64,000 nt of DNA from Stutzerimonas stutzeri. GTDB lineage: Bacteria > Pseudomonadota > Gammaproteobacteria > Pseudomonadales > Pseudomonadaceae. The stretch spans positions 1 to 64,000 of the forward strand of contig NZ_JAMOIC010000008.1 of NCBI RefSeq assembly GCF_024448895.1, in the 5' to 3' direction. Each line of letters begins with the position of its first letter. Within the stretch, counting starts at the first letter, position 1. Below the pieces are notes generated by a model. The model was given only the letters and a program-made list of their open reading frames with translations. It had not been told where the DNA came from and did not search any database. The position numbers and the translations under genes were made by a program. This document shows positions 33,293 through 63,045 of this stretch, piece after piece.

Positions 33293-33868
33293 TCAGAGGA
33301 ATACAGCGAGGTTTGGAGTGCCCAGAACGGCCTGGTCGATAATGACTTCGCGCCGCGCCAGCTTGAAGCCGTCTTCGCGCATACGCAGCACGTCGCGACG
33401 CTCACCACTGATGATGTCGACGTGGTGGTCCTTGAACCGGCTGCGCGTCAACAGCAGATAACTGGTCACCACATACTCATCAGGGTTGGCGGTTTCCTCG
33501 ACGAACACATTCGTCACCAGCCGCCGGGTACGCGACGGCGGATCTTCCGCCCAGGCACTCTTGCCGGAAAGGCGAAGCACACGCCCCATGATCGACCGAT
33601 AGTCATCGTGGTAATGCTGAACGGTACGCACGATGCTCGCCGACAGCTCGGACTGGGTGCGGGTATGCCGCAGCGGCACGGTATAGATCAGATCGGTATC
33701 AAGCCGTGCTGCCCATTCCTGCAGACGAATCTGATCCAGTAGCGTTGCTTCCTCGTAAAGGAAGGTCACGGCCTGGTTGTAAATATCCGCCCCGACCGGC
33801 ACACGCTTGATACCGACCGGAGAGCCCGGCTGGATCTGGTCCTCGCCGCGTTGTTGAACTTCTGCCAT
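33293..33868 (-). CDS. ditA2: Ring-hydroxylating dioxygenase beta subunit, DitA2-like
   Basis: A 191-aa small subunit of a Rieske oxygenase (NTF2-like fold, no cofactor). Family segments are EATLLDQIRLQEWAARLDTD, YTVPLRHTR, WAEDPPSRTRRLVTNVFVEE, VTSYLLLTRSRFKDHHVDII and LARREVIIDQAVLGTPNLAV. It packs with DitA1 in an alpha3beta3 oxygenase attacking the diterpenoid C ring. Start chosen at the ATG with GGAG 6 bases upstream. It follows ditA1 by 47 bases. A close paralogue is at 58104. Confidence 0.9.
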   Translation of the reverse strand: MAEVQQRGEDQIQPGSPVGIKRVPVGADIYNQAVTFLYEEATLLDQIRLQEWAARLDTDLIYTVPLRHTRTQSELSASIVRTVQHYHDDYRSIMGRVLRLSGKSAWAEDPPSRTRRLVTNVFVEETANPDEYVVTSYLLLTRSRFKDHHVDIISGERRDVLRMREDGFKLARREVIIDQAVLGTPNLAVFL

Positions 33869-33915
33869 GGAAATCTCCATTACTTTTTATTGTCGTGACC
33901 CGGGCCAGCGAGTGC

Positions 33916-42291: not shown

Positions 42292-43233
42292 TCAGCGCTT
42301 ACTGGCCAAGTATTCCGCGTCGAGTACCTCTTCAGGCGTTTTCACGCTCGGGCCGAGGATAGGGCCAACCATTTCGTGCCCCCATACGCTCAGCACTTCT
42401 GGATTGAGTTCGAACGGATCGCCCTGCCATGGCTCGATCTCGGCAATGGTTTCGATGGCGAAGCCCGAAGGCGTGAAATGGTAGAAGGACACGTGCGGGT
42501 CCTGGGCATGCTGGCCGAGCGTCATCATCATCGGCAGCTCGCGCTTACGCACGATGTCATACGTCTCGCCAACGTCGCGGATGCTGTCGACGACAATACC
42601 GACATGCTGCACACCCATACGGCCCGGACCGAACCCGTATGCGATGTCATGACTGGTGTGATGGTTCAGCTTGGAACGGAAGAACCCGGTGCGGCCCTTG
42701 CCGGCTCCCGCGCCATACCAGCTGAAGCCCATCACGTTGATCAGGAAATTCTCGAGTTCGGGGCCGTACTCCGGCGTGATCACTACCACATGGCCGGCAC
42801 CGCGCTCGTTGGCAACGAAGCCGCCATGGCAGCGACCCGGCATGAAGGAGCGTGGCGTCCACTTTTGCGCGTAGAAAAGCTCATGCTGATAGCCGACCGG
42901 ATCGCGAAAACGGATCAGTTCTCGCACGCCGCGCTTCTCGCACAGCTCCGCATCACCGCGGGTAAATTCGACGCCGGCAGCGGTGAATTTCTTCAACGCA
43001 TCCTCGAAGGCCATCCGTCCGATCGCCTCCCAGCCTATATAGGCGAGACGGTCGACCTTACCCGGGTGGAAGGCAAAACGATGGCGACGATCATCGATCT
43101 TGAAATAAATCGAATCGGGGTCGCTCTCGGGACTGCGGCCGATCCCGAAGCCCATAACGTTTGGGCCATAGTCACGCCACTCATCGAGTTTGGTGGTTTC
43201 GAAGCCCATGTAACCGATGCCGATGATATCCAC
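42292..43233 (-). CDS. ditC: Extradiol (meta-cleavage) dioxygenase of the VOC superfamily, DitC-like
   Basis: A 313-aa type I extradiol dioxygenase of the two-domain BphC type. Fe(II) ligands are H148 (GAGHVVV), H210 (GVQHIGI) and E261 (FAIETI). The active-site loop GQHAQDPHVSFYHFTPSG agrees. It cleaves the catecholic C ring of the diterpenoid. The start is GTG, not ATG, preceded by AACAACAAGAGGTG; the paralogue at 60117 has the same AACAACAAGAGG leader with ATG. The ferredoxin gene lies about 0.9 kb upstream, as in BKME-9. Confidence 0.92.
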   Translation of the reverse strand: MDIIGIGYMGFETTKLDEWRDYGPNVMGFGIGRSPESDPDSIYFKIDDRRHRFAFHPGKVDRLAYIGWEAIGRMAFEDALKKFTAAGVEFTRGDAELCEKRGVRELIRFRDPVGYQHELFYAQKWTPRSFMPGRCHGGFVANERGAGHVVVITPEYGPELENFLINVMGFSWYGAGAGKGRTGFFRSKLNHHTSHDIAYGFGPGRMGVQHVGIVVDSIRDVGETYDIVRKRELPMMMTLGQHAQDPHVSFYHFTPSGFAIETIAEIEPWQGDPFELNPEVLSVWGHEMVGPILGPSVKTPEEVLDAEYLASKR

Positions 43234-44122: not shown

Positions 44123-44341
44123 TCATTTGATTTCTTCGAGCCAAATCGCTTCGGCAGGGCAGGCCGCCGCACCTTCGCGGGCTTCCTCTTCGAGCTCTGC
44201 CGGAACGAGGTCGCTGTCGAGATACACAAGGCCATCGGCATCAAGCTTGTAGATACTCGGGCAGACGGCCGCGCACAAACCATATCCACAGCAACGGCTA
44301 CGGTCGGCGATTACTTTGAATTGCGCTTTTTCTGAACTCAT
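44123..44341 (-). CDS. ditA3: [3Fe-4S]-type ferredoxin of the diterpenoid dioxygenase, DitA3-like
   Basis: A 72-aa single-cluster ferredoxin. Cluster ligands are Cys17, Cys23 and Cys61; the position of the second Cys of a [4Fe-4S] motif is Tyr20 (RCCGYGLCAAVCP), which favours a [3Fe-4S] cluster. Cys18 and Cys27 are extra. DitA3 of BKME-9 is unusual among ring-hydroxylating dioxygenases in using this ferredoxin class. It passes electrons to DitA1A2, encoded 8.8 kb downstream. AAGGAG lies 8 bases before the ATG, and a 23-bp shared motif 39 bases before it. Confidence 0.93.
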   Translation of the reverse strand: MSSEKAQFKVIADRSRCCGYGLCAAVCPSIYKLDADGLVYLDSDLVPAELEEEAREGAAACPAEAIWLEEIK

Positions 44342-46325: not shown

Positions 46326-47561
46326 ATGTCACTCGCCTCAGTGGTGATCGTCGGTGCCGGCCACGCCGGATTTCAGGTAGCTGCTTCGCTACGTCAGGAA
46401 GGCTATGACGGAAAGATTACCCTGATCGGTGATGAGCCTGGCCTCCCGTACCAGCGACCGCCACTGTCGAAGGCCTACCTGCTCGGCAAGATCAGCGAGA
46501 CCAGCCTGCTCTTCCGTCCCGCCGAATTCTTCGAGACCCAGCGTGTCGAGCTGCTGCATGACCAGGCCACGGCGATAGATCGCCTGAATCGCAGGGTCTT
46601 GCTAGCTTCCGGCGCCGTCGCCACGTACGACCACCTGGTGCTCGCTACTGGCGCGCACAATCGTCCACTGCCGGTTCCCGGCGCTGAGCTTCAGGGTATT
46701 TTCGGGATCAAGACCAAGGCTGATGCCGATGTGCTGGCGCCGTTGGTAAAGGAAGCGCGAAATGTCGTAGTGGTGGGCGCTGGCTTTATCGGCCTCGAAT
46801 TCGCAGCAGTCGCAGCAGCCCTTGGCGCTACCGTGCATGTGCTGGAACTGGGCGATCGCCCCATGGCTCGCGCGCTGTCGCGAGAGATGTCGGAGGTATT
46901 CCGGGATGCGCATGAGAATTGGGGTGTCCATTTTGATTTTCGTCAGGGCTTGGCACGCATCGTCGGGGACAACGGACGGGTATGCGCCGTGGAGACCTCC
47001 GATGGCCGTACGCTGCCGGCCGACCTCGTGGTCTTTGGCATCGGCGTGATCCCCAACGTGCAACTGGCGACCGAAGCAGGCCTGCAGATCGAGAACGGCA
47101 TCAAGGTCGACGCCAGCCTGCTCACCGTTGACCCGCAGATTTCCGCCCTTGGCGATGCCGCTTGCTTCCCCTGCCTGTACAACGATGAGCAGCCAACCCG
47201 GCTCGAATCGGTGCAGAACGCCGTCGATCAGGGCCGCTGCATTGCGGCGCGACTGATGGGCAAGCCCGCGCCCTATTCAGCCTTGCCGTGGTTCTGGACA
47301 GATCAGGGCAACCTAAAGTTGCAGATCGCCGGGCTCTCTACCGGTTACGACAGCGCTGTGGTTGTAGGCTCGGTCGAAGCGCGTGAACTATCGGTGCTGT
47401 GTTTCCGCAATCAACATCTGGTCGCGGTGGAATCTTGTAATCGCATGGGCGATCACATGGCGGCACGCAAGATTCTCGCCCGCCCGCCCAGGCTAACCCC
47501 ACAGACAGCCGCTGCCGAGGGCTTCGATCTGAAAGCCTGGGAAGCGGCCAATCGCGACTGA
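46326..47561 (+). CDS. NAD(P)H:ferredoxin reductase (FAD, class of putidaredoxin reductase)
   Basis: A 411-aa flavoprotein. FAD-binding VVIVGAGHAGFQVAASLRQ (5-23), LPYQRPPLSKAYLLG, NAD-binding VVVVGAGFIGLEFAAVAAAL, FAD ribityl motif ALGDAACFP, and a C-terminal reductase domain. It delivers electrons from NADH to a ferredoxin. The adjacent [2Fe-2S] ferredoxin is the likely partner. It is also the only ferredoxin reductase in the window and hence a candidate reductase for the DitA3 ferredoxin, a component that was not located in the original dit work. AGGAGG lies 5 bases before the ATG. Confidence 0.92.
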   Translation: MSLASVVIVGAGHAGFQVAASLRQEGYDGKITLIGDEPGLPYQRPPLSKAYLLGKISETSLLFRPAEFFETQRVELLHDQATAIDRLNRRVLLASGAVATYDHLVLATGAHNRPLPVPGAELQGIFGIKTKADADVLAPLVKEARNVVVVGAGFIGLEFAAVAAALGATVHVLELGDRPMARALSREMSEVFRDAHENWGVHFDFRQGLARIVGDNGRVCAVETSDGRTLPADLVVFGIGVIPNVQLATEAGLQIENGIKVDASLLTVDPQISALGDAACFPCLYNDEQPTRLESVQNAVDQGRCIAARLMGKPAPYSALPWFWTDQGNLKLQIAGLSTGYDSAVVVGSVEARELSVLCFRNQHLVAVESCNRMGDHMAARKILARPPRLTPQTAAAEGFDLKAWEAANRD

Positions 47562-51046: not shown

Positions 51047-52339
51047 TTAAGCGTTGGCCCGGGTTAACAGCACTTGCTGGTAACCGCCCTGGAAATAGAG
51101 CAATGGCGCCCGTTGCGGATCGAGCCATGTGTGGTGGATGCGTCCAAGAAAGATGAGGTGGTCGCCGGCATCGACGACGCTATGCTTCTCGCACTCAATA
51201 CTGGCGGCAGCGTTCTGGATGATGGGCACCTTGAGCTCCCAGGTTTCCCAGGGAGTCGCGGCGAACCGGTCCTCGGCTCTGCTGGCGAAGCGCCGCGAAA
51301 TGTCCTGCTGCTGCGAATTGAGCACATTGATAGCGAAAGCCTCGCTGCGCTCGAAGGCATTCAGGCTGGCGGAGCGCTTGTCCAGGCAGAACAGCACCAA
51401 CGGCGGATCCATGGATACCGAAGTGAAAGAGTTCGCGGTCAGACCGACCGGCCTGCCGCTGGCGTCGGTCGTGGTGATCACCGTGACGCCCGTGGCGAAG
51501 GCACCGAGCGCCCGCCGTAGCGTCAGAGCGTTAGCCGCCGGGGTGCCGGCGCTCAGCTCATCGGCAATGAATGCCAGTATGTTTCGATCCAGCGCATCCA
51601 GATCGTCGGCGAAAAACAACGCACCACGCCCGCTCTCCAGGCGTAACCTACGCGCAGCGGGCGCCTGCCGGCCGATGCGCTCCAAAGCCGGGCTTGCGAT
51701 CGGCCCTTCGATCAGCAGCAGCGGTAATCGCAGCTCGCTCCACGCCGGCTCTGCTGCGGCGGCATGCGGGTACAGCCATACGCGCGGATCGCTGTGCCAG
51801 TACCAACGCCCATCGGCTTGCTGCCGCAGATATTTGTGCAGCGTCGAAAGGCCTATCGACGCTGCCTGGCTCGCAATCGAGCGAATGGCCGCGTCAAAAT
51901 CATCGCTGCCACCGGCTAGGCAGGTTTCCAGTATTCGTCGCTCGCATTCCTGCCCGGCATGCGGGTCGGCGATCACCAGCGCACTGGCAATTTCCAAGCC
52001 TTCGCGCCGTGCTTCGCTGATCGCCGCAAGTGCCGCTAGGCCTCCCAGCAGCGAGCCCACCACAGCCGGCGTACCGGGCAAAGCATCCATCACGACTCGA
52101 ATGTCGGCGGCCAGCACACTCAGCGAATAGTCGCAATGCCATTGGCTGGCGCCGTGGCCACGCAAGTCCAGAGAAACCACGTGGAACCCGGCCAGTATCA
52201 GTCGCCGAGCCAGATGCGCCCATTCATGACGCGTCTGCCCCGCGTCATGCAGTAGCAGCACCGTCTGGTGCGTGGGGTCGCCTCCCACCTGCGCGGCCAA
52301 TGAAATGCCGTCGTATCCCACGAGAAACTTGAATTCCAT
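51047..52339 (-). CDS. Fusion protein: inactive-looking alpha/beta-hydrolase domain plus flavin reductase domain
   Basis: A 430-aa two-domain protein. Residues 1-262 are an alpha/beta-hydrolase fold (LLLHDAGQTRHEW, VSLDLRGHGASQWH). The nucleophile elbow reads GSLLGG (95-100), so the catalytic Ser position (97) is Leu. The usual late GxGH motif reads ESGRGALF, without His. Residues 271-430 are an FMN-binding flavin reductase of the HpaC/HsaB type (LGAFATGVTVITT, GLTANSFTSVSMDPPLVLF, PLLYFQGGYQ). The reductase half should supply reduced flavin to the group D monooxygenase encoded at 54.7-56.0 kb. The hydrolase half may only bind substrate or partner. Confidence 0.88.
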   Translation of the reverse strand: MEFKFLVGYDGISLAAQVGGDPTHQTVLLLHDAGQTRHEWAHLARRLILAGFHVVSLDLRGHGASQWHCDYSLSVLAADIRVVMDALPGTPAVVGSLLGGLAALAAISEARREGLEIASALVIADPHAGQECERRILETCLAGGSDDFDAAIRSIASQAASIGLSTLHKYLRQQADGRWYWHSDPRVWLYPHAAAAEPAWSELRLPLLLIEGPIASPALERIGRQAPAARRLRLESGRGALFFADDLDALDRNILAFIADELSAGTPAANALTLRRALGAFATGVTVITTTDASGRPVGLTANSFTSVSMDPPLVLFCLDKRSASLNAFERSEAFAINVLNSQQQDISRRFASRAEDRFAATPWETWELKVPIIQNAAASIECEKHSVVDAGDHLIFLGRIHHTWLDPQRAPLLYFQGGYQQVLLTRANA

Positions 52340-52394
52340 CGTATTTACCTCCGATACCTGTGTAGCGGGCGCATCCCGTTCCAGAGCGCTGCGG

Positions 52395-53765
52395 TTAGCG
52401 CACCGTTTCCCTGGCCGTAACGGCTTCCGGATTGAGACTGCGGTTGGACATAGGCTCGTCCATTACCTCGAAGCCGCCTTCATAGAAGTCGCCGAGGACC
52501 GTCAACATGCGTTTGTTGAAGTCGTAGGTATGGCTGCGGACAGCCCATGGGATGCCGTGGTCGTAGAGCTGCACCATGGTGTTGGCCATCGTGCGATGCA
52601 GTTCGCCGTTGTGGTCATAGGCATCGACCAGAGCGGCTCCGGACAGGTCTTCGTCCAGGTAGTACACGCGCTTCGAATAGGCATGGCGCATGCCCTCCTT
52701 AAGCGTCGCCTCGACCACCCGTACACGATGCAGCTCGAAGCGCTCGCAAGCAGGATTGATATGGGTGCCTGTGAACTGACCTTCGCCGTTGCAGCGCTCG
52801 CTGGGGGTATATAGGTCATAGTTGTTATAGGGAATGTACATCTCCCGGGTGCCCAGGTATTTGAAGTTGAAGCGGTCCATACGCCCGGAAAAAACGAACA
52901 GTTCATCGAACAGCAGGCCGCCCCCGAGGCTTGCCACCGGCGTGTCGTAGGCGAACTCTGGCGCCAGTTTCACGCGGCGCTGGCCGGCGGTATAGCTCCA
53001 GGCACGCCGAGGCTTGGCGAGCGGATCAATGAAATCGAGCAGGCCGGTGATTTCCCCCGCCTTGCGTGCCGGCGCCTGGGTGATCGAATAGGTTCGCCAG
53101 TACATTTGCGGGTCGCGATCAGCCAGCGCCGTCTGGTAGAAGGTGCGCTCGCTGAAGGTCTTCTGGTCCGCTGTCATGGTGCGGGTTCCATTGACATCGA
53201 TGCTCCAGGAACGGTTGTGCGGTGCGATAATGGCCGTCTCACCGTAATAGCTAAGCATCTGGTTCCACATCACTTCGTAACCATTGGCCGGCAGCGGAAA
53301 AGGGATACCGCCGCGACAGGCCTCGCTGACGGCAAGGTAATCCCTGGCGGTTTTGCAAACACTCGCGTTACGCTTCGTGGCCTCCAGCACATGCTGCGGA
53401 TATCCCGCTGTACGGTGGGTCGGATAGATGGGCATGTAATAATCGGGATAGGTTTTGAGCAATTTGCGCTGGCCTTCACTCAACTTATCCGTATATTCGT
53501 GCATGTTATTCGCATCGATGCGCAGCAGCGGTTTCTCGTCCTGGAACGGGTTCTTCCAATAACCGCTTGCGGCCTCGAATCCTTCCGGCGCGGCACTCAA
53601 CCCACCGCTGTAGGCTGGAATGCTGCCTTCGGCATTGCCGGCACGGAGACTGCCGAAAAGTGTCAAGTCGTCACCTAGCCGAGCTGCATCGGGATTGCCC
53701 CATGCCTGGTTGGCCAGCAACAGACACATTGCTGCGTTGTATGCGACGCGGTGCAAGACTCTCAT
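52395..53765 (-). CDS. DUF1329 domain-containing exported protein
   Basis: A 456-aa protein with a signal peptide (cut near NQAWG). The DUF1329 family pattern is present: LTLFGSLRAGNAEGSIPAYS, YMPIYPTHRTAGYP, WYRTYSITQAPAR-like and YTAGQRRVKLAPEFAYDTP, then RMDRFNFKYLGTREMYIPYN. DUF1329 proteins are periplasmic or outer-membrane-associated and usually accompany hydrophobic-substrate catabolism (terpenoids, steroids, long alkyl chains), often beside a DUF1302 barrel, which is missing here. A role in substrate passage through the envelope is inferred. CAGGAG lies before the ATG at 53765. Confidence 0.85.
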   Translation of the reverse strand: MRVLHRVAYNAAMCLLLANQAWGNPDAARLGDDLTLFGSLRAGNAEGSIPAYSGGLSAAPEGFEAASGYWKNPFQDEKPLLRIDANNMHEYTDKLSEGQRKLLKTYPDYYMPIYPTHRTAGYPQHVLEATKRNASVCKTARDYLAVSEACRGGIPFPLPANGYEVMWNQMLSYYGETAIIAPHNRSWSIDVNGTRTMTADQKTFSERTFYQTALADRDPQMYWRTYSITQAPARKAGEITGLLDFIDPLAKPRRAWSYTAGQRRVKLAPEFAYDTPVASLGGGLLFDELFVFSGRMDRFNFKYLGTREMYIPYNNYDLYTPSERCNGEGQFTGTHINPACERFELHRVRVVEATLKEGMRHAYSKRVYYLDEDLSGAALVDAYDHNGELHRTMANTMVQLYDHGIPWAVRSHTYDFNKRMLTVLGDFYEGGFEVMDEPMSNRSLNPEAVTARETVR

Positions 53766-53850
53766 TGGTTTTCTCCTGCGTGTCCCTGCCAATGCGGGGA
53801 TCGATTGTTGTTGTATTAATCAGGGGAACACTTCCGCCCTCCCGGCGTTT

Positions 53851-53864
53851 TGTCTCCAGAGACA
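53851..53864. promoter_or_regulatory. Small palindrome upstream of DUF1329
   Basis: TGTCTC-CA-GAGACA, 85 bases before the DUF1329 start and after the TetR stop codon; a possible regulator site for the DUF1329 operon. Confidence 0.35.
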
Positions 53865-53989
53865 GAACAGGGACGAGTGGCGGGCCGCACGCCCGGCCGC
53901 GTACAGAGTGCGCAGCCGGCGAAGCCGGGAACTACAACAGCGCCGGTCTCAGGTGATTACACCTCCTTATATTCCTTTGAATATGCTGA

Positions 53990-54733
53990 TCAGGTCTGCC
54001 ACCAAGGCAGGTCCGCGGCATGCAGGTTGAGCTCCGCCAAGGCAATTTCGATCGCCTGGCTGGCCGCTTCCGGCTGCATCCCGAAGCCACGCATGATCAT
54101 TACCACTAGCTCGTGCCGATATGCATCGCTTGTTTTTTGCTCATGGGTGATCCGCCGCGAGCCCTGAATGGTGGCGCCAATGATGTAATCGGTGGCCACA
54201 TCCAGCGATTCGAACTGCACGACACCACTGGCCTTCGCCTCACGTAGGCAGCAGGTGACGATGCTCATCAGCCGGTTGCTGCGTGACAGGTAGTCGACAT
54301 AGTCGACCCGCACGGTGAACTCGGCGCGGCGCGGCTGCATGCCGGCGTGAGTGAGGGAAATCAATGGGCCCGCCACGACACGCGCGGCAGGGTCCTGCAG
54401 ACCTGCGAAAACGCGCTCATAGGTACCGATCATCTCATCGGCCATCAGCTGCCCCAGTTCGGTGAGTACTTCTTCCAGCGAGTCGTAGTATTTGTAGAAC
54501 GTGCCGCGAGACACGCCGGCCTTAAGAATCACATCCTCTATAACCGGAGGCTTGGTGCGCGGGCTGAGAAGAAATACGTCCAGCGCAGCGGACATCAAGC
54601 GCTTGCGCATACGCTCGCGTTTCTCGCGGGCTACCCGCACGCGAAAATCCGCGCCCCCGCTGCCTTCCAGTGTCTGTTGAAGTTCGTCATTCATTTTGGG
54701 TTTTGCCTTGGTGAGAGGAATCCTGGCCTGCAC
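53990..54733 (-). CDS. TetR/AcrR-family regulator
   Basis: A 247-aa regulator. TetR DNA-binding domain about residues 35-85 (RLMSAALDVFLLS, IEDVILKAGVSRGTFYKYYD) and a helical effector domain. The start is GTG, with GGGGGAG 8 bases upstream inside the end of the monooxygenase gene, so it is translationally coupled to that gene; an internal ATG at 54694 is weaker. It probably represses its own operon through the TGACG-TTTT-CGTCA palindrome at 55978. The ligand may be the phenolic substrate of the monooxygenase. Confidence 0.85.
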   Translation of the reverse strand: MQARIPLTKAKPKMNDELQQTLEGSGGADFRVRVAREKRERMRKRLMSAALDVFLLSPRTKPPVIEDVILKAGVSRGTFYKYYDSLEEVLTELGQLMADEMIGTYERVFAGLQDPAARVVAGPLISLTHAGMQPRRAEFTVRVDYVDYLSRSNRLMSIVTCCLREAKASGVVQFESLDVATDYIIGATIQGSRRITHEQKTSDAYRHELVVMIMRGFGMQPEAASQAIEIALAELNLHAADLPWWQT

Positions 54734-54736
54734 GGC

Positions 54737-55951
54737 CTATTCTCCCCCGATATTGCCCAGCAGAAGCAGATTGGAATCGAGCCCGGTCATGGCTCTCCCG
54801 TACAGCTCCAGCGAAAGCCGGGTATTGAGCGCGGTGTGGCGGCTACCGACGTTGAGATCGCGCCAGAAACGCTGCAATGGATTGCGGCTGGCGAAGGCTG
54901 CCGGCCCGGCGATATCCATCAGCCGCTCCCCGGCGCGGCGCAACAAACCCATGGCAAAACCGCAGTCGGCCTGGATGCGGGCCTTTTCATAGCCATTCAA
55001 GGGGCGCTTTTGTGCGGTTTCGTCGATCTGCGCCGCCGCGCGGCGAATGTGTAACCAGGCGGAGTCGATTTCCATCGCAGCCTCGCCGAGCTGCTGCACG
55101 AACACATGCGATTGAGCCTGGCTCTCATAGTGCCAGCCGGTGACCGGACGCTTCGCCAATTGCCTCTTAACCTGATCGAGCAGTGCCCCAGCCGCCCCCA
55201 GCATGGGCGCCAGCACACCGAGCGGGAACAAGGGTTCAACCGGCCAACGATCACGCGGTTCGAGTGCAACTTGCGCCGCCACACCCGGCGCGGAACCACT
55301 GCGCAATTGGGAATAGCGCATCACCAATGCCGGGGCGACCTCGACATCTTCGGCAACGATAGTGTTGCTGCCCGAGCCACAGACCCCTGCCACATGCCAA
55401 GTGTCTTCAATGCGTACCCTGGGATGCTTGAGCGGCAGTACCGCAAAACCGCTATCGATGACATCTCCGTTCTCGTCGATGATTTTCACGCCGTTCATAG
55501 CGTAATCGGCATGCAAACAGCCGGAGGCATATCCCCAGCGCCCGCTGACGCGATAGCCGCCGGGAAACGCGATGGCGCTACCGGTTTGCGCGGCCACGCT
55601 GCAAAACAGCTCATCGCCGCGCTTGAACAGCAAGCTGGATACCGCCTCAGGCATCGACACCGCCGCGGCAGTCACCCCTGAAAGCAGGCTGAACGCCCAC
55701 GCCGTGCCCGGACAAGCCTTACCCAACTCGGCGACGGTTTCGATATGAGTGATCAGCTTGTGACTCACGCCACCGGCACGCCTGGGGAACATCATGCGGA
55801 ACAACCCCGCCTGACCAATCGCCTCGATCACCGCCTCGGGAACCCGGCCTTCGCGTTCACACTGCTCAGCGTATCGGGAGACCAGCGGCAGCAACGCATG
55901 GGCGGTAGCGACCGGATCGTGCGGCGCCGTGACTGACGTTAAGTCCTGCAT
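54737..55951 (-). CDS. Group D flavin-dependent monooxygenase (HsaA/HpaH-like, acyl-CoA dehydrogenase fold)
   Basis: A 404-aa oxygenase component of a two-component flavin monooxygenase. The acyl-CoA dehydrogenase fold is evident (AIGQAGLFRMMFPRRAGGVS, GKACPGTAWAFSLLSG, WHVAGVCGSGSNTIVAEDVE, LQRFWRDLNVGSRHTALNTR), and the C-terminal segment is that of HsaA, HpaH and related phenol hydroxylases, not the GGTxEI of dehydrogenases. It ortho-hydroxylates a phenol with reduced flavin. The flavin reductase is probably the fusion protein at 51.0-52.3 kb. AAGGTG precedes the ATG at 55951. It may prepare a catechol for one of the extradiol dioxygenases. Confidence 0.88.
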   Translation of the reverse strand: MQDLTSVTAPHDPVATAHALLPLVSRYAEQCEREGRVPEAVIEAIGQAGLFRMMFPRRAGGVSHKLITHIETVAELGKACPGTAWAFSLLSGVTAAAVSMPEAVSSLLFKRGDELFCSVAAQTGSAIAFPGGYRVSGRWGYASGCLHADYAMNGVKIIDENGDVIDSGFAVLPLKHPRVRIEDTWHVAGVCGSGSNTIVAEDVEVAPALVMRYSQLRSGSAPGVAAQVALEPRDRWPVEPLFPLGVLAPMLGAAGALLDQVKRQLAKRPVTGWHYESQAQSHVFVQQLGEAAMEIDSAWLHIRRAAAQIDETAQKRPLNGYEKARIQADCGFAMGLLRRAGERLMDIAGPAAFASRNPLQRFWRDLNVGSRHTALNTRLSLELYGRAMTGLDSNLLLLGNIGGE

Positions 55952-55977
55952 ATAAACACCTTGTGATCCATTCATAA

Positions 55978-55991: not shown

Positions 55992-56236
55992 CAATAGTCA
56001 TGATGTCTATTTTAATCAAGGCGATCGAGAAGATATTCACTGCAGCGCGCTCATGAGGCGCTTGGGCCTGCGGTAAGGGTGCTGGCGCACCAAGATGAAT
56101 TGCGGTGGCTTCGTGTCGTGCGATCGAAGCCTAGTCTGGCAACGGCGGCAGTCTTGGCGGGCGCTGGCGATAGCCGACGCGCTCATTGACCCAGATCCTT
56201 AGTAAATGGGTTCGGCGCGGATACTCGCCGCCACGA

Positions 56237-56520
56237 CTGGAGCTCAAAGCGAAGTTCGGCCTGGAGGACATCAACGCCCCGACAAGATGACCGCGATCTT
56301 CTACGACGACGGCAGCACCCTAGAGTTATACCGACCTGGAGCGCACCTGCCAGGCCATCACCAAGTTTTCCGAGCGTGGCGCCGCCGAGTGCCTCGCAAC
56401 AGGCGTTGGACGATGGAGCAGAGCCAGAATCGGTCAGGAACTGATGCGTGCCCAGGCGATGACCGCCTGGAACTACATCAGCGAATGGTTCGAGAACGAC
56501 CAGGTCAAGATCGCCCAGGG
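56237..56520 (+). pseudogene. Decayed fragment of a CrtI-like oxidoreductase gene
   Basis: At DNA level this matches part of the intact gene at 61083-62666 (about 61308-61668), for example the stretch GACAAGATGACCGCGATCTT, then ACCTGGAGCGCACCTGC and GCGAATGGTTCGAGAACGAC. Frameshifts interrupt it (reading TDLERTCQAITKFSERG, then IGQELMRAQAMTAWNYISEW in another frame), and roughly 80 bases in the middle are deleted. It lies directly upstream of the second Rieske alpha gene in the same orientation. It is therefore the remnant of another copy of that oxidoreductase. The flanks 56000-56236 and 56527-56636 contain no gene. Confidence 0.85.
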
Positions 56521-56636
56521 CCATTGATCCAGATCAATTCTCAAATTGGATTCGTCAATGATACTCGCCAACAAGTTGCACACTTTTATGCATTTCTGTG
56601 CAGCCAAGAATAAAAACAAACTATGGGAGAGCACGC

Positions 56637-58031
56637 ATGACCAACACGAACCCCATCCTGAGCGACGGTACGAAAATCTCGGACCTCATCGATCTCGAAA
56701 AGCATGAAGTGAAAATGCGGACCCTGTCCGACCCCGAGCTTTATGCCCTTGAAATGAAGAAAATCTTCGCCAAGACCTGGGTCTTTCTCGGCCACGAAAC
56801 CGAGATCCCGAACAAGGGCGACTTCATCGTCCGCGACATGGGCTCCGACTCGGTGATCGTCGCCCGCTCCAGTGACGAGCAGATCCATGTCTCCTTGAAC
56901 GTCTGCCCCCACCGCGGTATGAGGATTTCCACCCTCGACGGCGGTAATGCCGCAGCCCATGTATGTATCTACCACGGTTGGACCTTCAGGCCCAACGGCG
57001 ACTTCATCGCCGCACCGATGGAGAAAGAGTGCATGCACGGCAAAATGCGCACGAAGGCCGAACTCGGTTTGCATAAGGCTCGTGTGTCCGTCTACGGTGG
57101 TCTGATCTTCGCCACTTTCAATATCGACGGTCCGTCGTTCGAGGACTTTCTCGGCGATGCCAAGTGGTATTTCGACACCCTTTGGTGCCGCACCACCGCC
57201 GGCATGGAAGTGCTAGGCCCGCCGCAGCGCTTCACTATTCGTGCCAATTGGAAGACCGCTTGCGAGCAGTCTGCCTCGGACGGCTTTCACGTCCTGACCC
57301 TGCACCGCTGGCTCGCCGAGGTCGGCCCCTACACCAAAAAACCGGATGCAGACGGCAAAAGCGGCGACCTCAGCCCGGAGATGTATGGCACCGAAGTCTG
57401 GACCGAACACGGGCATACCATGCGCTGCATCGAACTGGACCGCAAAATCCAGCGCCTCACCGGGCGCGACCCGTCAACCATGAGCGCCGAAGAAAAACTC
57501 ACCCTGCTGCCACCGCCAGGCATTACCCGGGAAATGGTGCCGGAGCTGCTCAAGCGCTTCAGCCCGGAGCAGTTGCACGTCATGAGCTGGCGTCCGCCGC
57601 AGGTGGGCAACTTCTTCCCCAATGGCCTGTTCGAGTTCATCTACCTGCCGCAGCCGGACGGCACCGTGCTCGGTGCCATGGCGCTGCACGCCTACGTGCC
57701 CAAGGGACCGGACAAGCTGGAATTCGTCAACTGGATCCTCGCCGAGAAGGATACCCCGCCGGAAATCAAGGCGCGCATGCTGCGCCAGTCGATCCAGTTG
57801 CTCGGCACCTCCGGCATGGTCGAACAGGATGACTCCGACACCTGGCCGCATATGACGCTGGCGGCTAAGGGGGCGGTCAGTGAAGACAGCACCCTGAAGT
57901 ATCAGGCCTTGTACGAAGACGACGCCAAGCCTACCGACTGGCCCGGCCCCGGATATGTTGGGGAGGGCTTCACCAAGGATGATACCCAGTGGCAATGGTG
58001 GAAGTACTGGTACGCGTTGATGACGGCTTGA
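56637..58031 (+). CDS. Ring-hydroxylating dioxygenase alpha subunit, second copy
   Basis: A 464-aa Rieske oxygenase subunit closely related to the ditA1-like protein. Rieske ligands C90-x-H92 and C110-x2-H113 (CPHRGMR, CIYHGW). Iron site DGFHVLTLH and the acidic EQDDSDTWPH block. The two proteins differ in the substrate-pocket region around 235-300 (for example TKKPDADGKSGDLSPEMYG against the Glu/Gly-rich segment of the first copy). No ferredoxin gene accompanies this set, so it may share DitA3. GGAG precedes the ATG at 56637. Third codon positions are strongly G/C, more than in ditA1. Confidence 0.9.
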   Translation: MTNTNPILSDGTKISDLIDLEKHEVKMRTLSDPELYALEMKKIFAKTWVFLGHETEIPNKGDFIVRDMGSDSVIVARSSDEQIHVSLNVCPHRGMRISTLDGGNAAAHVCIYHGWTFRPNGDFIAAPMEKECMHGKMRTKAELGLHKARVSVYGGLIFATFNIDGPSFEDFLGDAKWYFDTLWCRTTAGMEVLGPPQRFTIRANWKTACEQSASDGFHVLTLHRWLAEVGPYTKKPDADGKSGDLSPEMYGTEVWTEHGHTMRCIELDRKIQRLTGRDPSTMSAEEKLTLLPPPGITREMVPELLKRFSPEQLHVMSWRPPQVGNFFPNGLFEFIYLPQPDGTVLGAMALHAYVPKGPDKLEFVNWILAEKDTPPEIKARMLRQSIQLLGTSGMVEQDDSDTWPHMTLAAKGAVSEDSTLKYQALYEDDAKPTDWPGPGYVGEGFTKDDTQWQWWKYWYALMTA

Positions 58032-58103
58032 CTGCCCCATCCTTGCACACCCAGCCCGGCTGCACAGAGCAGCCGACGGCACCCCAACTTCACGGAGAAC
58101 GCC

Positions 58104-58679
58104 ATGAATGACTTACAGACCCTGCTCGCACCCACTCCTCTGCCGCCAACAGACCGCAGCAAGCGCATCGCCAGCAGCAGCCCGATCCATAGCGAAATCG
58201 TTGACTTTCTCTACGACGAAGCCGAGCTGTTGGACACCCTGCAACTCAAGCAGTGGAGCGAAATTCTGACCCTGGATATCGAGTACAACGCACCGCTGCG
58301 TCTCACCCGCCCCAACCGCCTGCAACAACAGACCGTGGTGCGCAACGTCCAGCACCTGCATGAGAGCCATGGCTCGCTGATGGTGCGCATCATGCGCATC
58401 ACCGACACCCGCAGTGCCTGGGGCGAGGACCCGCCTTCGCGCACCCGGCGTCTAGTCAGCAATGTCCGAGTGTTCGGCACCGACAAGGCTGAGGAATACA
58501 AGGTGCTGAGCTACCTACTGGTGACCCGCAGCCGCTTCGACTTCGACGACTTCGACCTGATCCCCTGCGAACGCCACGACATCCTGCGCCGCGAGAACGG
58601 CCAACTGAAACTGGCGCGGCGAGAAATCCTGCTGGATCAGGTTGTGATCGGCACGCCGAACCTGGGCATTTTCCTCTGA
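58104..58679 (+). CDS. Ring-hydroxylating dioxygenase beta subunit, second copy
   Basis: A 191-aa beta subunit, the same length as the first copy. Shared blocks: EIVDFLYDEAELLDTLQLKQ, APLRLTRPNRLQQ, WGEDPPSRTRRLVSNVRV, SYLLVTRSRFDFDDFDLIP, LARREILLDQVVIGTPNLGI. It pairs with the alpha subunit encoded 72 bases upstream. GGAG lies 8 bases before the ATG. Confidence 0.9.
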   Translation: MNDLQTLLAPTPLPPTDRSKRIASSSPIHSEIVDFLYDEAELLDTLQLKQWSEILTLDIEYNAPLRLTRPNRLQQQTVVRNVQHLHESHGSLMVRIMRITDTRSAWGEDPPSRTRRLVSNVRVFGTDKAEEYKVLSYLLVTRSRFDFDDFDLIPCERHDILRRENGQLKLARREILLDQVVIGTPNLGIFL

Positions 58680-58741
58680 CCTGGCGGTAACGGCCATCGG
58701 GGCGTTCCGTGACACGAAACCGACAAGGGAGAACAACAACA

Positions 58742-60049
58742 ATGAAACTCGAAGACATGATCCTAGTCAGCGTGGATGACCACGCCATCGAACCGGCCGG
58801 CGCCTTCGACCGCCACATGCCGGCACGCTTCAAGGGCCGCCAACCGCGCGTCGAGCAGCACGGCGGCCGCGACGTCTGGGTATTCGAAGGCCAGGCCACC
58901 GGCTACATGGGCCTCAACTCGGTGGTCGGCCGGCCCAAGGAAGAATATGGCATGGAGCCGCTGGGCTACGAGCACATGCGCCGCGGCACCTGGGACATCA
59001 AGGCCCGCGTCGACGACATGAGCGCCAATGGCATTCTCGGCTCGATCTGCTTTCCAACCTTCCCCGGCTTCGCCGGCCAGCGCTTCCAGAACCACCCGGA
59101 CCGCGCCGTGTCCCTTGCCGCGATCCAGGCCTATAACGACTGGCACCTGCACGACTGGTGCAACGTCGCGCCGGGACGCTTCATCCCGCTGATGCTGGTG
59201 CCCTGGTGGGACATGCAGGCCGCTGCCGCCGAAGTCACCCGCCTGGCGAAACTCGGCGTGCATGCCCTGTCACTGTCCGACAACCCGGCGCTGCACGGCT
59301 TCCCGTCGATCCGCAGCGACTACTGGGACCCGTTGTGGAAAGCCTGCGCCGACAACAAGGTGGTGATCTGCTGCCATATCGGCACCGGCATCAAGGCCGA
59401 GCACGCCTCCGAACTGTCGCCGATCGACGCCTGGATCACCTCCATGCCGATTTCCATCGCCAACTCGGCCGCCGACTGGATCTGGGCACCGATGTGGAAG
59501 AAATTCCCCGACCTGCGCATGGCCCTGTCCGAAGGCGGCATCGGCTGGATCCCCTACCTGCTGGAGCGCGCCGACTTCACCCACCGCCACCATCACGCCT
59601 GGACCAACGCCGACTTCGGCGGACAGCGGCCCAGCGACATCTTCCGCAAGCACATTATCACCTGCTTCATCGAGGACGATTTCGGCCTGCGCAACCTGCC
59701 GGACGTGGGCGAGGACATGGTCACCTGGGAATGCGACTACCCGCACTCCGACTGCACCTGGCCGAATTCGCCGGAAGTGGCCTGGGAAAGCCTGCGCAAG
59801 CTGCCCGAGCCGACCATCCACAAGGTCACCCACCTCAATGCCATGCGCGAGTTTTCCTATGACCCGTTCGCCCTGCTCGGTCGGGAGAACTGCACGGTCG
59901 GCGCCCTGCGCGCCCAGGCCAAGCACGTCAACATCGAGCCGGCGCTGGGCATGGGCGGCGCCGCGCCCAAGCGCGAGAGAGGCAAGCCGGTGACCTCCGG
60001 CGACATCAACGCGATGTTCGCCCAGGCGGATGCCCAGACCGCGCTGTAA
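58742..60049 (+). CDS. Amidohydrolase (ACMSD-like), second paralogue
   Basis: A 435-aa protein, identical in length to the gene product at 21060-22367 and very similar along the whole chain (shared VSVDDHAIEP, QATGYMGLNSVVGRPKEEYG, VVICCHIGTG, DYPHSDCTWPNSP). It is probably a decarboxylase or hydrolase of a carboxylated or ring-cleaved intermediate. Its position between dioxygenase and extradiol genes ties both paralogues to dioxygenase-dependent steps. The ATG used follows GGGAG; the frame is open 11 codons upstream. Confidence 0.87.
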   Translation: MKLEDMILVSVDDHAIEPAGAFDRHMPARFKGRQPRVEQHGGRDVWVFEGQATGYMGLNSVVGRPKEEYGMEPLGYEHMRRGTWDIKARVDDMSANGILGSICFPTFPGFAGQRFQNHPDRAVSLAAIQAYNDWHLHDWCNVAPGRFIPLMLVPWWDMQAAAAEVTRLAKLGVHALSLSDNPALHGFPSIRSDYWDPLWKACADNKVVICCHIGTGIKAEHASELSPIDAWITSMPISIANSAADWIWAPMWKKFPDLRMALSEGGIGWIPYLLERADFTHRHHHAWTNADFGGQRPSDIFRKHIITCFIEDDFGLRNLPDVGEDMVTWECDYPHSDCTWPNSPEVAWESLRKLPEPTIHKVTHLNAMREFSYDPFALLGRENCTVGALRAQAKHVNIEPALGMGGAAPKRERGKPVTSGDINAMFAQADAQTAL

Positions 60050-60116
60050 ACACGGCCATGACGACCCTCCCGGCGCACGGTCAGGAGGGTCCGTTTCATA
60101 ACAACAAGAGGCCATC

Positions 60117-61037
60117 ATGGACATCATCGGCATCGGTTATCTGGGCTTTGAAAGCCCGAATCTGAAGCCCTGGCGCGAGTACGCACTGCAGGTGCTCGGC
60201 CTAGGTCTGGGTACGCCCCCGCCGGGCGATCCCGACACGCTGTACCTGCGCAGCGACGACCGCCGTCACCGCATTGCCTTTCACTCCGGCCCCATAGACC
60301 GCATTGCCTATATCGGCTGGGAAGCACGCGGGAGGCAAGCCTTCGACGCCGCCGTGGCGCGCTTTCGCTCAGCCGGGGTGGCCCTGGAGGTCGGCGACGC
60401 GGCGCTGTGCGAGATCCGCGGGGTGCGCGAACTGGTGCGCTTGCGCTGCCCGGCGGGCTACCGGCACGAGCTGTTCTACGGGCAGAAATGGACGCCGCGC
60501 TCGTTCGTTCCCGGTCGAGCGCACGGCGGGTTCGTCGCCGACGAACGCGGCGTTGGCCATATCGTCCTGATGACACCGCACTACGGCCCCGAACTGGAAG
60601 CCTTCTTCACCGACCTGATGGGTTTCCACTGGTACGGCGCCGGCGCCGGCAAGGGCCGCACCGGCTTCTTCCGCGCCAAACTCAACGACAAGACCAGCCA
60701 CGACATCGCCTTCGGCCATGCGCCGGGCATGAAGGGCGTGCAGCACATCGGCCTGTTCGTCAAAAGCCTGCGCGACCTCGGTGAAACCTACGACATCGTG
60801 CGCCAGCGCGGCCTGCCGATGCAGATGACCCTGGGCCAGCACAGCCAGGACCCGCACGTCTCCTTCTACCACTTCAGCCCGTCGGGTTTCGCCGTGGAGT
60901 GCATCCACGAACTGGCGCCCTGGCACCACGACGGCTTCGAACTGAACCCCGAGCAACTGAGCGTCTGGGGCCATGAGCGGGTCGGGCCGATTCTCGGGCC
61001 GAGTGTCATGCCACTGGCGCAATACCCTGACGACTGA
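60117..61037 (+). CDS. Extradiol dioxygenase (VOC), second paralogue
   Basis: A 306-aa BphC-type extradiol dioxygenase. Fe(II) ligands H148 (GVGHIVL), H210 (GVQHIGL) and E261 (FAVECI) stand at the same positions as in the ditC-like protein. Active-site loop GQHSQDPHVSFYHFSPSG. The leader AACAACAAGAGG is shared with the other copy. It cleaves a catechol made by the second dioxygenase or by the flavin monooxygenase. It is divergent enough from copy 1 (for example residues 22-45 and 262-306) to suggest a different substrate. Confidence 0.9.
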   Translation: MDIIGIGYLGFESPNLKPWREYALQVLGLGLGTPPPGDPDTLYLRSDDRRHRIAFHSGPIDRIAYIGWEARGRQAFDAAVARFRSAGVALEVGDAALCEIRGVRELVRLRCPAGYRHELFYGQKWTPRSFVPGRAHGGFVADERGVGHIVLMTPHYGPELEAFFTDLMGFHWYGAGAGKGRTGFFRAKLNDKTSHDIAFGHAPGMKGVQHIGLFVKSLRDLGETYDIVRQRGLPMQMTLGQHSQDPHVSFYHFSPSGFAVECIHELAPWHHDGFELNPEQLSVWGHERVGPILGPSVMPLAQYPDD

Positions 61038-61082: not shown

Positions 61083-62666
61083 ATGAGCAAGACCTACGAC
61101 ATCGTCATCGCCGGCGGCGGCCACAATGGCCTGGTCGCCGCCTGCTACCTGGCCAAGGCCGGGCGCAGCGTGTGTGTGGTGGAGAAGAACGACAAGGTCG
61201 GCGGCGGGGTCATGACCCGCGAGCTGACCATTCCCGGCTTCAAGCACGACGTCTGCTCGGTGGCGCACACCCTGCTGCAGGCCAACCCGCTGCTGCGCAA
61301 CGACGAACTGGAGCTGAAAGCGAAATTCGGCCTCAAGTACATCAACCCCGACAAGATGACCGCGATCTTTTACGACGACGGCAGCACCCTGGAGTTCTAC
61401 ACCGACCTGGAACGCACCTGCGAGGCCATCGCCAAGTTTTCCGAGCGTGACGCCGAGGCCTACCGCCGCTTCAATCACCAGGTGTTCCAGAACCTCGACA
61501 TGCTGGTCATGGGCATGTTCAACACGCCGCCGAGCGCCTCGCACCAAGCGCTGATGATGGAGCAGAGCCAGGTTGGCCAGGAACTCATGCGTACCCAGGC
61601 GATGAGCGCCTGGGACTACATCAGCGAATGGTTCGAGAACGACAAGGTCAAGATCGCCCTGGCCCGCTACGCCTCCGAGGCGATGATGAACCCGTTCGAC
61701 AACGGCACCGGCTTCGGCTTCTACATCATCCTGCCGCTGATGCACCGTTACGGCGTGGGCATCCCGGTCGGCGGCTCCGGTGCTTTCGCCGACGCCTTGC
61801 GCGCCTGCCTGGAACACCATGGCGGCGAGGTGCGCACCGAAGCACCGATCAAGCAGTTCAAGATCGAAGGCGGCAAGGCGACTGGCGTGATCCTCGACAG
61901 CGGCGAGGAAATCCTCGCCCGCCAGGGCGTGATCTCCACCCTGCACGCCAAGCAGGTGTTCCCCGCCATGGTCCCCGGCTGCGAGCTGCCCGAGGGCTTC
62001 GAGCAGCGCATCCGTACGCTCAAGCACAGCAGCTTTCAACCCTTCAACATGCACGTCGCGCTGCGCGAGGCACCACGCTACAAGGTCGGCCCGGCGGTGG
62101 ACGACTTCTTCTGGGTGGAGCGCTCGCACTCCGATCCGGAAGAATTCGCCCGCGCCTTCCGCGACCTGGAATACGGCATCCCGCGTCGCGACTTCATCGC
62201 CTACGTGACCCAGGACACCTACGACAAGACCCGCGCGCCGGAAGGCAAGCGCGTGCTCAACATGTATGCCTTCTGCCCCTACCACCTCAAGGGTGGCGCC
62301 CAGCGCTGGGACGAGATCGGTGAAGAAGTGGCCCATGCCTTCCTCGACGACCTGCGCAAGCTCACCACCAACATGGACGACGACAACATCCTCGTCTTCT
62401 CGTGGATGACCCCGCTGGACATCGAGCGCCATAACAACGCCATGATCGGCGCCGATATCCTGCATTTCGGCTCCTATTCCTGGCAGATCGCCGGCAACCG
62501 CCCCGCCCCCGGCTACGCCCAGTACAAGTCGCCGGTGGACGGCCTGTACCTGGCCGGAGCCAGCACCCACCCCGGCGGCGGTGTCACCGCCGCCTCTGGA
62601 CGTAACGTGGCACGGGTGCTGCTGGAGGAATCCGGCCTGGACTTCGACGAACTGATCGGTGCCTGA
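61083..62666 (+). CDS. CrtI/phytoene-desaturase-like NAD(P)/FAD oxidoreductase
   Basis: A 527-aa flavoprotein. FAD motif VIAGGGHNGLVAACYLAKAG (7-26), ending with VEKNDKVGGGVMT, and a C-terminal FAD loop GLYLAGASTHPGGGVTAASG. This is the CrtI-like family, whose members desaturate, isomerise or oxidise hydrophobic polyenes and terpenoids. In a diterpenoid cluster a ring dehydrogenation/aromatisation role is attractive but unproven. It is the last large gene of the second dioxygenase operon. A broken copy lies at 56237-56520. Confidence 0.88.
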   Translation: MSKTYDIVIAGGGHNGLVAACYLAKAGRSVCVVEKNDKVGGGVMTRELTIPGFKHDVCSVAHTLLQANPLLRNDELELKAKFGLKYINPDKMTAIFYDDGSTLEFYTDLERTCEAIAKFSERDAEAYRRFNHQVFQNLDMLVMGMFNTPPSASHQALMMEQSQVGQELMRTQAMSAWDYISEWFENDKVKIALARYASEAMMNPFDNGTGFGFYIILPLMHRYGVGIPVGGSGAFADALRACLEHHGGEVRTEAPIKQFKIEGGKATGVILDSGEEILARQGVISTLHAKQVFPAMVPGCELPEGFEQRIRTLKHSSFQPFNMHVALREAPRYKVGPAVDDFFWVERSHSDPEEFARAFRDLEYGIPRRDFIAYVTQDTYDKTRAPEGKRVLNMYAFCPYHLKGGAQRWDEIGEEVAHAFLDDLRKLTTNMDDDNILVFSWMTPLDIERHNNAMIGADILHFGSYSWQIAGNRPAPGYAQYKSPVDGLYLAGASTHPGGGVTAASGRNVARVLLEESGLDFDELIGA

Positions 62667-63007: not shown

Positions 63008-63045
63008 ATGCAGAAAGGGTGCGATGTATCGCACCCTTTCTGCAT
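63008..63045. terminator. Long perfect inverted repeat, bidirectional terminator
   Basis: Two perfect 18-bp arms (left arm 63008-63025, right arm 63028-63045; core GGGTGCGAT / ATCGCACCC) separated by GT. It lies between convergent genes: small hypothetical gene on plus, NTF2-like on minus. The A- and T-rich parts AGAAA / TTTCT could act as short U-tracts either way. Confidence 0.75.

Follow-up and report, generated by a model that had tools for sequence, protein, structure and literature searches.

A five-gene accessory module beside the dit cluster of Stutzerimonas stutzeri and its putative part in diterpenoid catabolism

Why should one diterpenoid-degradation cluster carry two sets of ring-attacking genes? 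The window analysed here, a whole stretch of 64,000 nucleotides (bases 1-64,000 of contig 8, NZ_JAMOIC010000008.1, of the 5.39-Mb Stutzerimonas stutzeri genome), contains a dit cluster at ~15-50 kb with genes for a cytochrome P450, a coenzyme A (CoA) ligase, thiolases, FAA hydrolases, acyl-CoA dehydrogenases, short-chain dehydrogenases/reductases (SDRs) and a ferredoxin reductase. A second group of genes, referred to as set 2, lies at 56.6-62.7 kb. It comprises five genes, is linked to the dit core, has a history separate from it and is under purifying selection. The reading that we favour, with a probability of about 0.7, is that set 2 is an accessory dit module, which spread horizontally as a unit within the Pseudomonadaceae, occupies one site at the cluster edge and encodes a second DitA-type route with a shifted preference. 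The main unexpected point is that a pair of proteins labelled as amidohydrolases, one in each set, are probably oxygenases.

Set 2 is located on the plus strand. The alpha_2 gene (56637-58031) encodes the 464-residue large subunit of a DitA1-type Rieske oxygenase (Pfam Rieske and Ring_hydroxyl_A), and beta_2 (58104-58679) encodes the 191-residue small subunit (Ring_hydroxyl_B). These are followed by 'amidohydrolase' 2 (58742-60049; 435 residues, PF04909), by ext_2 (60117-61037; 306 residues, Pfam BphC_D1 and Glyoxalase), a type I extradiol dioxygenase of the DitC/BphC/HsaC-like kind, and by a flavin adenine dinucleotide (FAD)-dependent oxidoreductase of the phytoene desaturase/CrtO type (61083-62666; 527 residues, Pfam Amino_oxidase). 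The spacing between the genes is 45-72 bases, and set 2 therefore likely forms a single operon; no regulator gene is present among its open reading frames (ORFs). The core counterparts are scattered on the minus strand: alpha_1, the DitA1 orthologue (33916-35319), beta_1, a DitA2-type subunit (33293-33880, Ring_hydroxyl_B), 'amidohydrolase' 1 (21060-22367) and ext_1, a DitC-type extradiol dioxygenase by Pfam, NCBIfam and tree placement (42292-43233; 313 residues). BLASTP identities between the copies are 69% for alpha, 49% for beta, 83% for the 'amidohydrolases' and 69% for the extradiols. An earlier reading of the sequence alone had described these four pairs, with their order, strands and coordinates, as a compact operon that parallels a scattered core, and the ORFs, Pfam and BLASTP agree with it on each of these points; the fifth gene and a gene remnant at 56236-56522 had been overlooked. 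The equal lengths that it gave hold for the 'amidohydrolases' (435/435 residues), whereas the longest beta_1 ORF encodes 195 residues and matches the 191 of beta_2 only when started at an inner ATG. The observation of a second set is right, beyond chance.

The active sites of the two copies match, as had been claimed: the motifs CPHRG, CIYHGW, DGFH, LHRW and EQDD occur in both alpha subunits, and both extradiols carry H148, H210 and E261. The claimed excess of G/C at third codon positions (GC3) in set 2 is also borne out. GC3 is 0.79-0.89 in the set-2 genes against a genome mean of 0.709 (standard deviation 0.066; 133 ORFs of >=200 residues from ten other 20-kb stretches), which places these genes at the 92nd-100th percentile of the sampled ORFs and the copy-1 genes at the 42nd-71st. 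In the set-2 genes of the genomes G202, G120 and G334, GC3 is 0.85-0.93.

The distribution of alpha_2 ties set 2 to the dit core (DitA-like alpha genes were counted at a threshold of E 1e-100). In the genus sample, alpha_2 is present in 4 of 56 genomes, all four of which also carry alpha_1 at a distance of ~17-21 kb in divergent orientation. Dit-type alpha genes occur in 30 of the 398 genomes of the family sample; seven of these have alpha_2, always with alpha_1 on the same contig, and the other 23 have a single alpha, alpha_1 (hypergeometric probability of the co-occurrence, 7e-9). Within the stretches fetched from twelve mapped genomes, copy 1 is arranged in a conserved order, and in six of the twelve set 2 forms a block with identical neighbours at one edge of the cluster. 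The congeners G120 and G134 differ at this site, with 6.8 kb including the five genes in the former and 157 bases in the latter; G134 may have lost the genes or may have lacked them from the start.

A contig scan extended the comparison to the best 80 of 339 relatives. Among these, the full five-gene order is found in seven pseudomonad loci (L087-L093), and the order alpha_2, beta_2, 'amidohydrolase' and FAD gene, lacking ext_2, in seven loci from Thauera, Aromatoleum, Zoogloea and one unplaced metagenome-assembled genome. Five Comamonadaceae-type loci read alpha_2, beta_2, P450, 'amidohydrolase', alpha_1 and beta_1; alpha_1 lies on one contig with alpha_2 in Thauera, Aromatoleum, Pseudomaricurvus and Comamonadaceae as well. 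The Rhodocyclales operon (Thauera 2A1, Aromatoleum toluvorans and Zoogloea) resembles set 2 in gene order and families at 68-85% identity, including relatives of the FAD oxidoreductase at 82-85%, and alpha_1 is present in all five of the Rhodocyclales carriers searched. It differs in having no second extradiol gene, which the pseudomonad module holds between the 'amidohydrolase' and the FAD gene. The genomes of P. abietaniphila and LB400 contain one DitA-like alpha each, and alpha_1 is 92% identical to the P. abietaniphila locus (L123) and 75% to that of LB400. In a search of 24 genomes or records, six genomes of the Massilia group and a Massilia putida plasmid were found to have a single DitA-like alpha, 73-76% identical to alpha_2. 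The plasmid carries most dit core genes beside its alpha_2-type gene at 55-83% identity; FAA3 and MFS_3 are absent from the two plasmid stretches fetched, and the chromosome lay outside the search. More distant DitA-like alpha-beta pairs (53-55% to alpha_2) occur on Croceicoccus and Novosphingobium plasmids (L262, L263), whose clusters hold flavin reductase-type, P450 and HsaA-like genes and represent a separate, probably terpenoid, cluster.

Trees were built from matches covering >75% of the query above an identity floor of 35-50%, depending on the family, with one row for each set of identical sequences. Of 104 alpha rows, 54 entered the tree, after removal of four fragments or copies of the window or G134 sequence and thinning at 95.5% identity with the window and genome rows kept; the beta tree used 52 of 96 rows thinned at 93%, and the 'amidohydrolase' and extradiol trees used all 47 and 65 rows. 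A DitA1-type ingroup of 51 alpha rows (support 100/99) is separated from the alphas of Caulobacter, Croceicoccus and Novosphingobium. Inside this diversity, alpha_2 belongs to a 19-row clade (100/100) away from the pseudomonad alpha_1, and beta_2 to a 17-row clade (100/99) of the same groups. When pseudomonad copies 1 and 2 were held in one clade, the approximately unbiased (AU) test rejected the tree for both alpha (p 6.6e-36) and beta (p 0.00098), which rules out duplication of these two genes within the family. It is well supported by these trees that alpha_2 and beta_2 represent an old clade in which betaproteobacteria also stand, and were acquired. The same constraint was not rejected for the 'amidohydrolase' (p 0.13) or the extradiol (p 0.162). 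The type-2 pseudomonad 'amidohydrolases' (97/98) group with betaproteobacterial sequences on weak support (85/81) in a tree of unsure root. The ext_2 clade (nine rows, 100/99) consists of pseudomonads only and falls outside the core extradiols, again with weak support (82/51). A source of ext_2 was not found; a search of 369 genomes of the class at E 1e-100 gave a match in this genome alone, and at E 1e-50, the 24 genomes or records contain one extradiol each, except for two in both Pseudomonas set-2 carriers. Because an origin of the 'amidohydrolase' and extradiol among the pseudomonad copies is not rejected, because 'amidohydrolase' 2 looks mosaic and because the Rhodocyclales operon lacks ext_2, set 2 is a patchwork and not one foreign operon from one outside donor. 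The sequence-only reading, which proposed an operon acquired from another genome instead of a simple recent duplication, thus holds for alpha and beta, with GC3 in agreement, and is not carried by the other two pairs.

Silent sites bear on the time of the transfer. Synonymous divergence (dS) from G202 spans 0.23-0.52 across the five set-2 genes of the window, compared with 0.99-1.96 across six of its core genes; the 'amidohydrolase' 1 value against G202 was excluded, here and from the fourfold-site comparison, because the G202 contig stops short of its copy 1, so that copy 2 was matched instead. Against three congeners, dS is 0.24-0.66 for set 2 and 0.04-0.58 for seven core genes. Fourfold-site identity, corrected for base use and taken against G202, G120 and G334, agrees with the G202 contrast: it is 0.38-0.76 in set 2 but 0.11-0.38 in the core. 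The ratio of nonsynonymous to synonymous divergence (dN/dS) in set 2 is 0.02-0.23, and the genes have therefore been kept functional under purifying selection. A scan of 'amidohydrolase' 2, with ~40-55 sites per segment, gave 0.71 and 0.64 for codons 220-330 against 'amidohydrolase' 1 of G134 and G120 (0.69-0.85 against type-2 copies), and 0.35 and 0.33 for codons 0-110 against the same two genes (0.24-0.73 against type-2 copies). For the middle segment, the score against 'amidohydrolase' 1 of the window itself is no higher than 0.38. The simplest reading of this mosaic, which is suggestive, is that the copies recombined in a Pseudomonas and then moved to Stutzerimonas. Together, the silent divergence and the mosaic gene give good support to a recent spread of the whole cassette between genera, and the source was probably a Pseudomonas. 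A plasmid source of set 2 was considered and rejected: the best matches among those listed reached 39.5% (FAD gene; 10 of 11) and 69% (extradiol; 2 records). Resin-acid catabolism would thus change through the exchange of a five-gene cassette between genera, in which alpha and beta share an origin and one further gene or more was patched by recombination.

The alpha_2 subunit contains the Rieske C-x-H/C-xx-H pattern (C90, H92, C110, H113) and a mononuclear-iron 2-His-1-Asp site with a bridging Asp (D215, H218, H223, D399); the roles of these residues, which we take from an alignment to a naphthalene dioxygenase chain, are presumed. The tree placement with DitA1 and the link to the dit core in all seven family carriers identify it as DitA-type. 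It shares the Rieske motifs and the catabolic-core linkage with DitA1A2 of P. abietaniphila BKME-9 and Paraburkholderia xenovorans LB400, from which alpha_2/beta_2 differ as a separate old clade. Only three positions are fixed differently between the alpha_1 and alpha_2 types (66 versus 31 rows). Since no DitA-like alpha besides the alpha_2 type was found in the Massilia group, this type can evidently, to judge from gene content, act as the sole DitA; together with the few fixed differences this argues for a reaction of the DitA kind, and alpha_2 probably carries out the DitA step. Excerpts of PMC13063091 give 7-oxo-dehydroabietic acid as the DitA substrate, with attack at C-11/C-12, and DitC as a putative ring-cleavage enzyme. 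An 11,12-dihydroxylation of this compound by alpha_2beta_2 would gain indirect support from the genomes with the alpha_2 type alone. A biphenyl or phenylpropionate function taken from family names was discarded because the NCBIfam equivalog cut-offs are missed: HcaE and HcaF by alpha (237 of 830 bits) and beta (109 of 230), and HsaC and BphC by ext_2 (143.5 of 450 and 199.5 of 366.45 bits). Beta_2 passes just the looser beta subfamily model (154 of 145 bits). With HsaC and BphC, ext_2 shares the two-domain type I extradiol build and the 2-His-1-Glu site, but the tree places it beside the DitC-type enzymes of dit clusters.

Both 'amidohydrolases' resemble dinuclear oxygenases. In phmmer searches of the PDB, 'amidohydrolase' 2 matches DitZ (8uyr) at E 5.5e-109 over residues 1-399 of 435 and PtmU3 at E 1.7e-33, and 'amidohydrolase' 1 matches the same proteins at E 5.7e-101 (residues 1-399) and E 8e-31. 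The residues D12, H14, H212, E264, D332, H335 and D337 are invariant in all 47 sequences. They comprise the D-x-H, H, E and D-xx-H ligand pattern of PF04909, in columns that align with PtmU3 and DitZ, and they match by motif the ligands printed for AibH2 (D25, H27, H211, E265, D337, H340 and D342) and for LynB7 in the available parts of PMC7782822 and PMC10127204. The acidic D337 lies two residues after the last His, a feature that, in the excerpt of PMC7782822, is reported solely in members with binuclear centres. Amidohydrolase-related dinuclear oxygenases use Fe/Fe or Mn/Fe, and PtmU3 hydroxylates C-5 of diterpenoid-CoA intermediates, according to excerpts of PMC10811679 and PMC10401708 for the metals and of PMC10127204 for PtmU3. 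The window proteins share with PtmU3, AibH2, SfbO, LynB7 and DitZ the PF04909 family and, by motif, all six metal-ligand positions along with the acidic seventh residue, and differ in lying in a catabolic cluster with no adjoining Rieske ferredoxin and in being known here from their sequences. Both are probably dinuclear monooxygenases and not hydrolases. A DitZ-type gene is present in all 22 dit-bearing genomes or records searched, with a single copy in P. abietaniphila BKME-9. The name DitZ is the PDB molecule name; no paper about it was among the literature matches listed, which does not disprove that one exists. The window encodes one more PF04909 protein (27,513-28,589), whose nearest PDB entries are ACMSD and resorcylate decarboxylases; unlike the other two, it is likely a decarboxylase.

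A route that joins these enzymes can be proposed. Electrons for alpha_2beta_2 would come from the ferredoxin and reductase of the core; set 2 itself contains no gene for either. The small DitA3-like ferredoxin (44126-44341, minus strand; 69% identical across 67 residues to the one encoded in the dit cluster of Massilia putida) is the likely donor for both oxygenases, and the reductase is encoded at 46326-47561 on the plus strand (Pfam Pyr_redox_2 and Reductase_C). Like DitA, alpha_2beta_2 would dihydroxylate the aromatic ring C of an acid of the 7-oxo-abietane kind; the catechol would then be formed by a short-chain dehydrogenase of the core and cleaved by ext_2. The DitZ/PtmU3-type enzyme would add a hydroxyl group to the skeleton, for which C-5 is the most likely position. 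Such a hydroxyl, together with the ketone at C-7, would give a beta-hydroxyketone, and retro-aldol cleavage could then open ring B. The FAD enzyme probably introduces a double bond; it is assigned at family level (278 bits against the NCBIfam CrtO cut-off of 1000), and a desaturase role is guessed from its relatives CrtI and CrtO. We hold only tentatively, at clearly less than even odds, that the two 'amidohydrolases' are dinuclear-metal abietane C-5 hydroxylases that lead to ring-B opening by retro-aldol cleavage, and that set 2 is a mobile package for attack on both the C and B rings. Such an activity would account for two observations. Excerpts of PMC13063091 describe 5-hydroxylated metabolites of unassigned enzymatic origin in another strain, for the first of which the authors suggest a P450, and 5-alpha-hydroxy-7-oxo-dehydroabietic acid accumulates in strains with modified ditA1 according to excerpts of PMC6891630. 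If the assignment is true, an open step of resin-acid catabolism gains a candidate gene, and the orphan 5-hydroxylated metabolites of P. abietaniphila would be assigned to a gene labelled amidohydrolase.

Several points weigh against the module reading and the route proposed for it. In the comparison with G120, the dS ranges overlap at the edge (alpha_2 0.82, 'amidohydrolase' 1 0.83 and MFS_4 0.88), and high GC3 may inflate silent identity, for which the base-use correction is simple. The AU tests do not reject an in-family origin for two of the genes. GC3 in the Rhodocyclales and Massilia counterparts is as high (0.76-0.92), so composition alone cannot name a donor. No AibG-type Rieske ferredoxin gene lies beside either 'amidohydrolase'; the Pfam label of both proteins is Amidohydro_2, and NCBIfam has no model for either. 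The C-5 assignment draws on PtmU3, a remote homologue, and on metabolites of another strain, for which a P450 was suggested. The substrates and products of the set-2 enzymes are putative throughout.

What set 2 adds to the core could be read in two other ways. It may be a redundant second DitA route, for more flux or for expression in different circumstances, a possibility that we place below even odds. The identical active-site motifs, the few fixed alpha differences, the Massilia group and the lack of a regulator gene within the operon fit redundancy, but the maintenance of alpha_2/beta_2 as an old separate clade alongside alpha_1 favours some division of labour, and the FAD oxidoreductase, which has no core counterpart and travels with the set, also speaks against redundancy. 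The sequence-only reading had proposed that set 2 could bring a further class of diterpenoids within reach. Pimaranes or phenolic abietanes would be examples; although possible, a new kind of substrate is unproven, and we regard this extension as rather doubtful. The FAD oxidoreductase, which accompanies set 2 in both pseudomonads and Rhodocyclales, would suit it, as would the second P450 that follows beta_2 in Comamonadaceae; the second P450 of pseudomonads also occurs in clusters without set 2. An HsaA-like monooxygenase and a hydrolase-flavin reductase fusion adjoin set 2 and could form an HsaABCD-like phenol route with ext_2, but both genes are unmatched in the fetched stretches of other carriers. 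In favour of a wider range, a review (excerpts of PMC6891630) states that pimaranes do not serve Gram-negative abietane growers as sole carbon source, while pimarane growers can use both. Against a wider range, isopimaric acid supports growth of P. abieticivorans, whose dit cluster resembles that of P. abietaniphila in organisation (excerpts of PMC10710418), and P. abietaniphila has a single DitA-like alpha. The idea of a different substrate class as a necessary consequence of a second alpha is weakened by the Massilia group, with its alpha_2 type alone, and by the three fixed differences, both of which count against range widening as well.

The origin and the function of set 2 admit further alternatives. 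A core duplicate that arose inside the Pseudomonadaceae and later diverged would agree with the 'amidohydrolase' and extradiol AU tests and with codons 220-330 of 'amidohydrolase' 2, whose distance from 'amidohydrolase' 1 of Pseudomonas is little greater than that from the remaining type-2 copies. It is improbable for the set, given the rejection for alpha and beta and the existence of the alpha-beta-'amidohydrolase'-FAD frame in Thauera, Aromatoleum and Zoogloea. It is less probable still that set 2 degrades non-diterpenoids such as biphenyl or phenylpropanoids and lies beside dit by chance. The nearest NCBIfam names (HcaE/HcaF and BphC) point there, at scores below the cut-offs (HcaE 237 of 830, BphC 200 of 366 bits), and the shared contigs of alpha_1 and alpha_2, in all seven carriers among the 398 family genomes and in Thauera, Aromatoleum, Pseudomaricurvus and Comamonadaceae, speak for a dit function.

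The accessory-module reading is accompanied by traces of an earlier event upstream of alpha_2. A decayed FAD oxidoreductase gene (56,236-56,522), on the same strand as the intact gene, consists of two blastn pieces that correspond to bases 225-373 and 443-583 of that gene at 89% and 88% identity, with small indels. It is 84-91% identical to pseudomonad FAD copies and 77-86% to Rhodocyclales copies. A past tandem copy of set 2 or a second arrival of set 2 likely left this remnant. In this genome, a 5-kb insert sits between the remnant and an SDR gene at 49.8-50.5 kb, and the same SDR gene adjoins alpha_2 directly in G028, G037 and G045. The insert (51047-55975, minus strand; Pfam and NCBIfam) encodes a fusion of an MhpC/HsaD-like alpha/beta-hydrolase with a flavin reductase domain (51047-52339), a DUF1329 protein, a TetR-like protein that scores below the Pfam cut-off and an HsaA-like flavin monooxygenase (54737-55975). 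Among 116 genomes searched, the fusion occurs in one, namely this genome. The Pseudomaricurvus locus L094 has a flavin reductase gene close to its alpha_2 (67% identity across 147 residues).

On the right-hand side, contig bases 64001-84000 contain an accessory block with a second P450, an FAD oxidoreductase ~30% identical to that of set 2, an SDR, an enoyl-CoA hydratase, an MMPL transporter and a DUF1329 relative, parts of which occur in dit clusters both with and without set 2. Co-travel of set 2 with this block (63.5-82 kb) was dropped as an explanation, as G134, G379, G232 and G130 hold parts of the block and no alpha_2. Downstream of the FAD gene, a 38-base inverted repeat (95%) is located at 63008-63045, and it is also present in G037.

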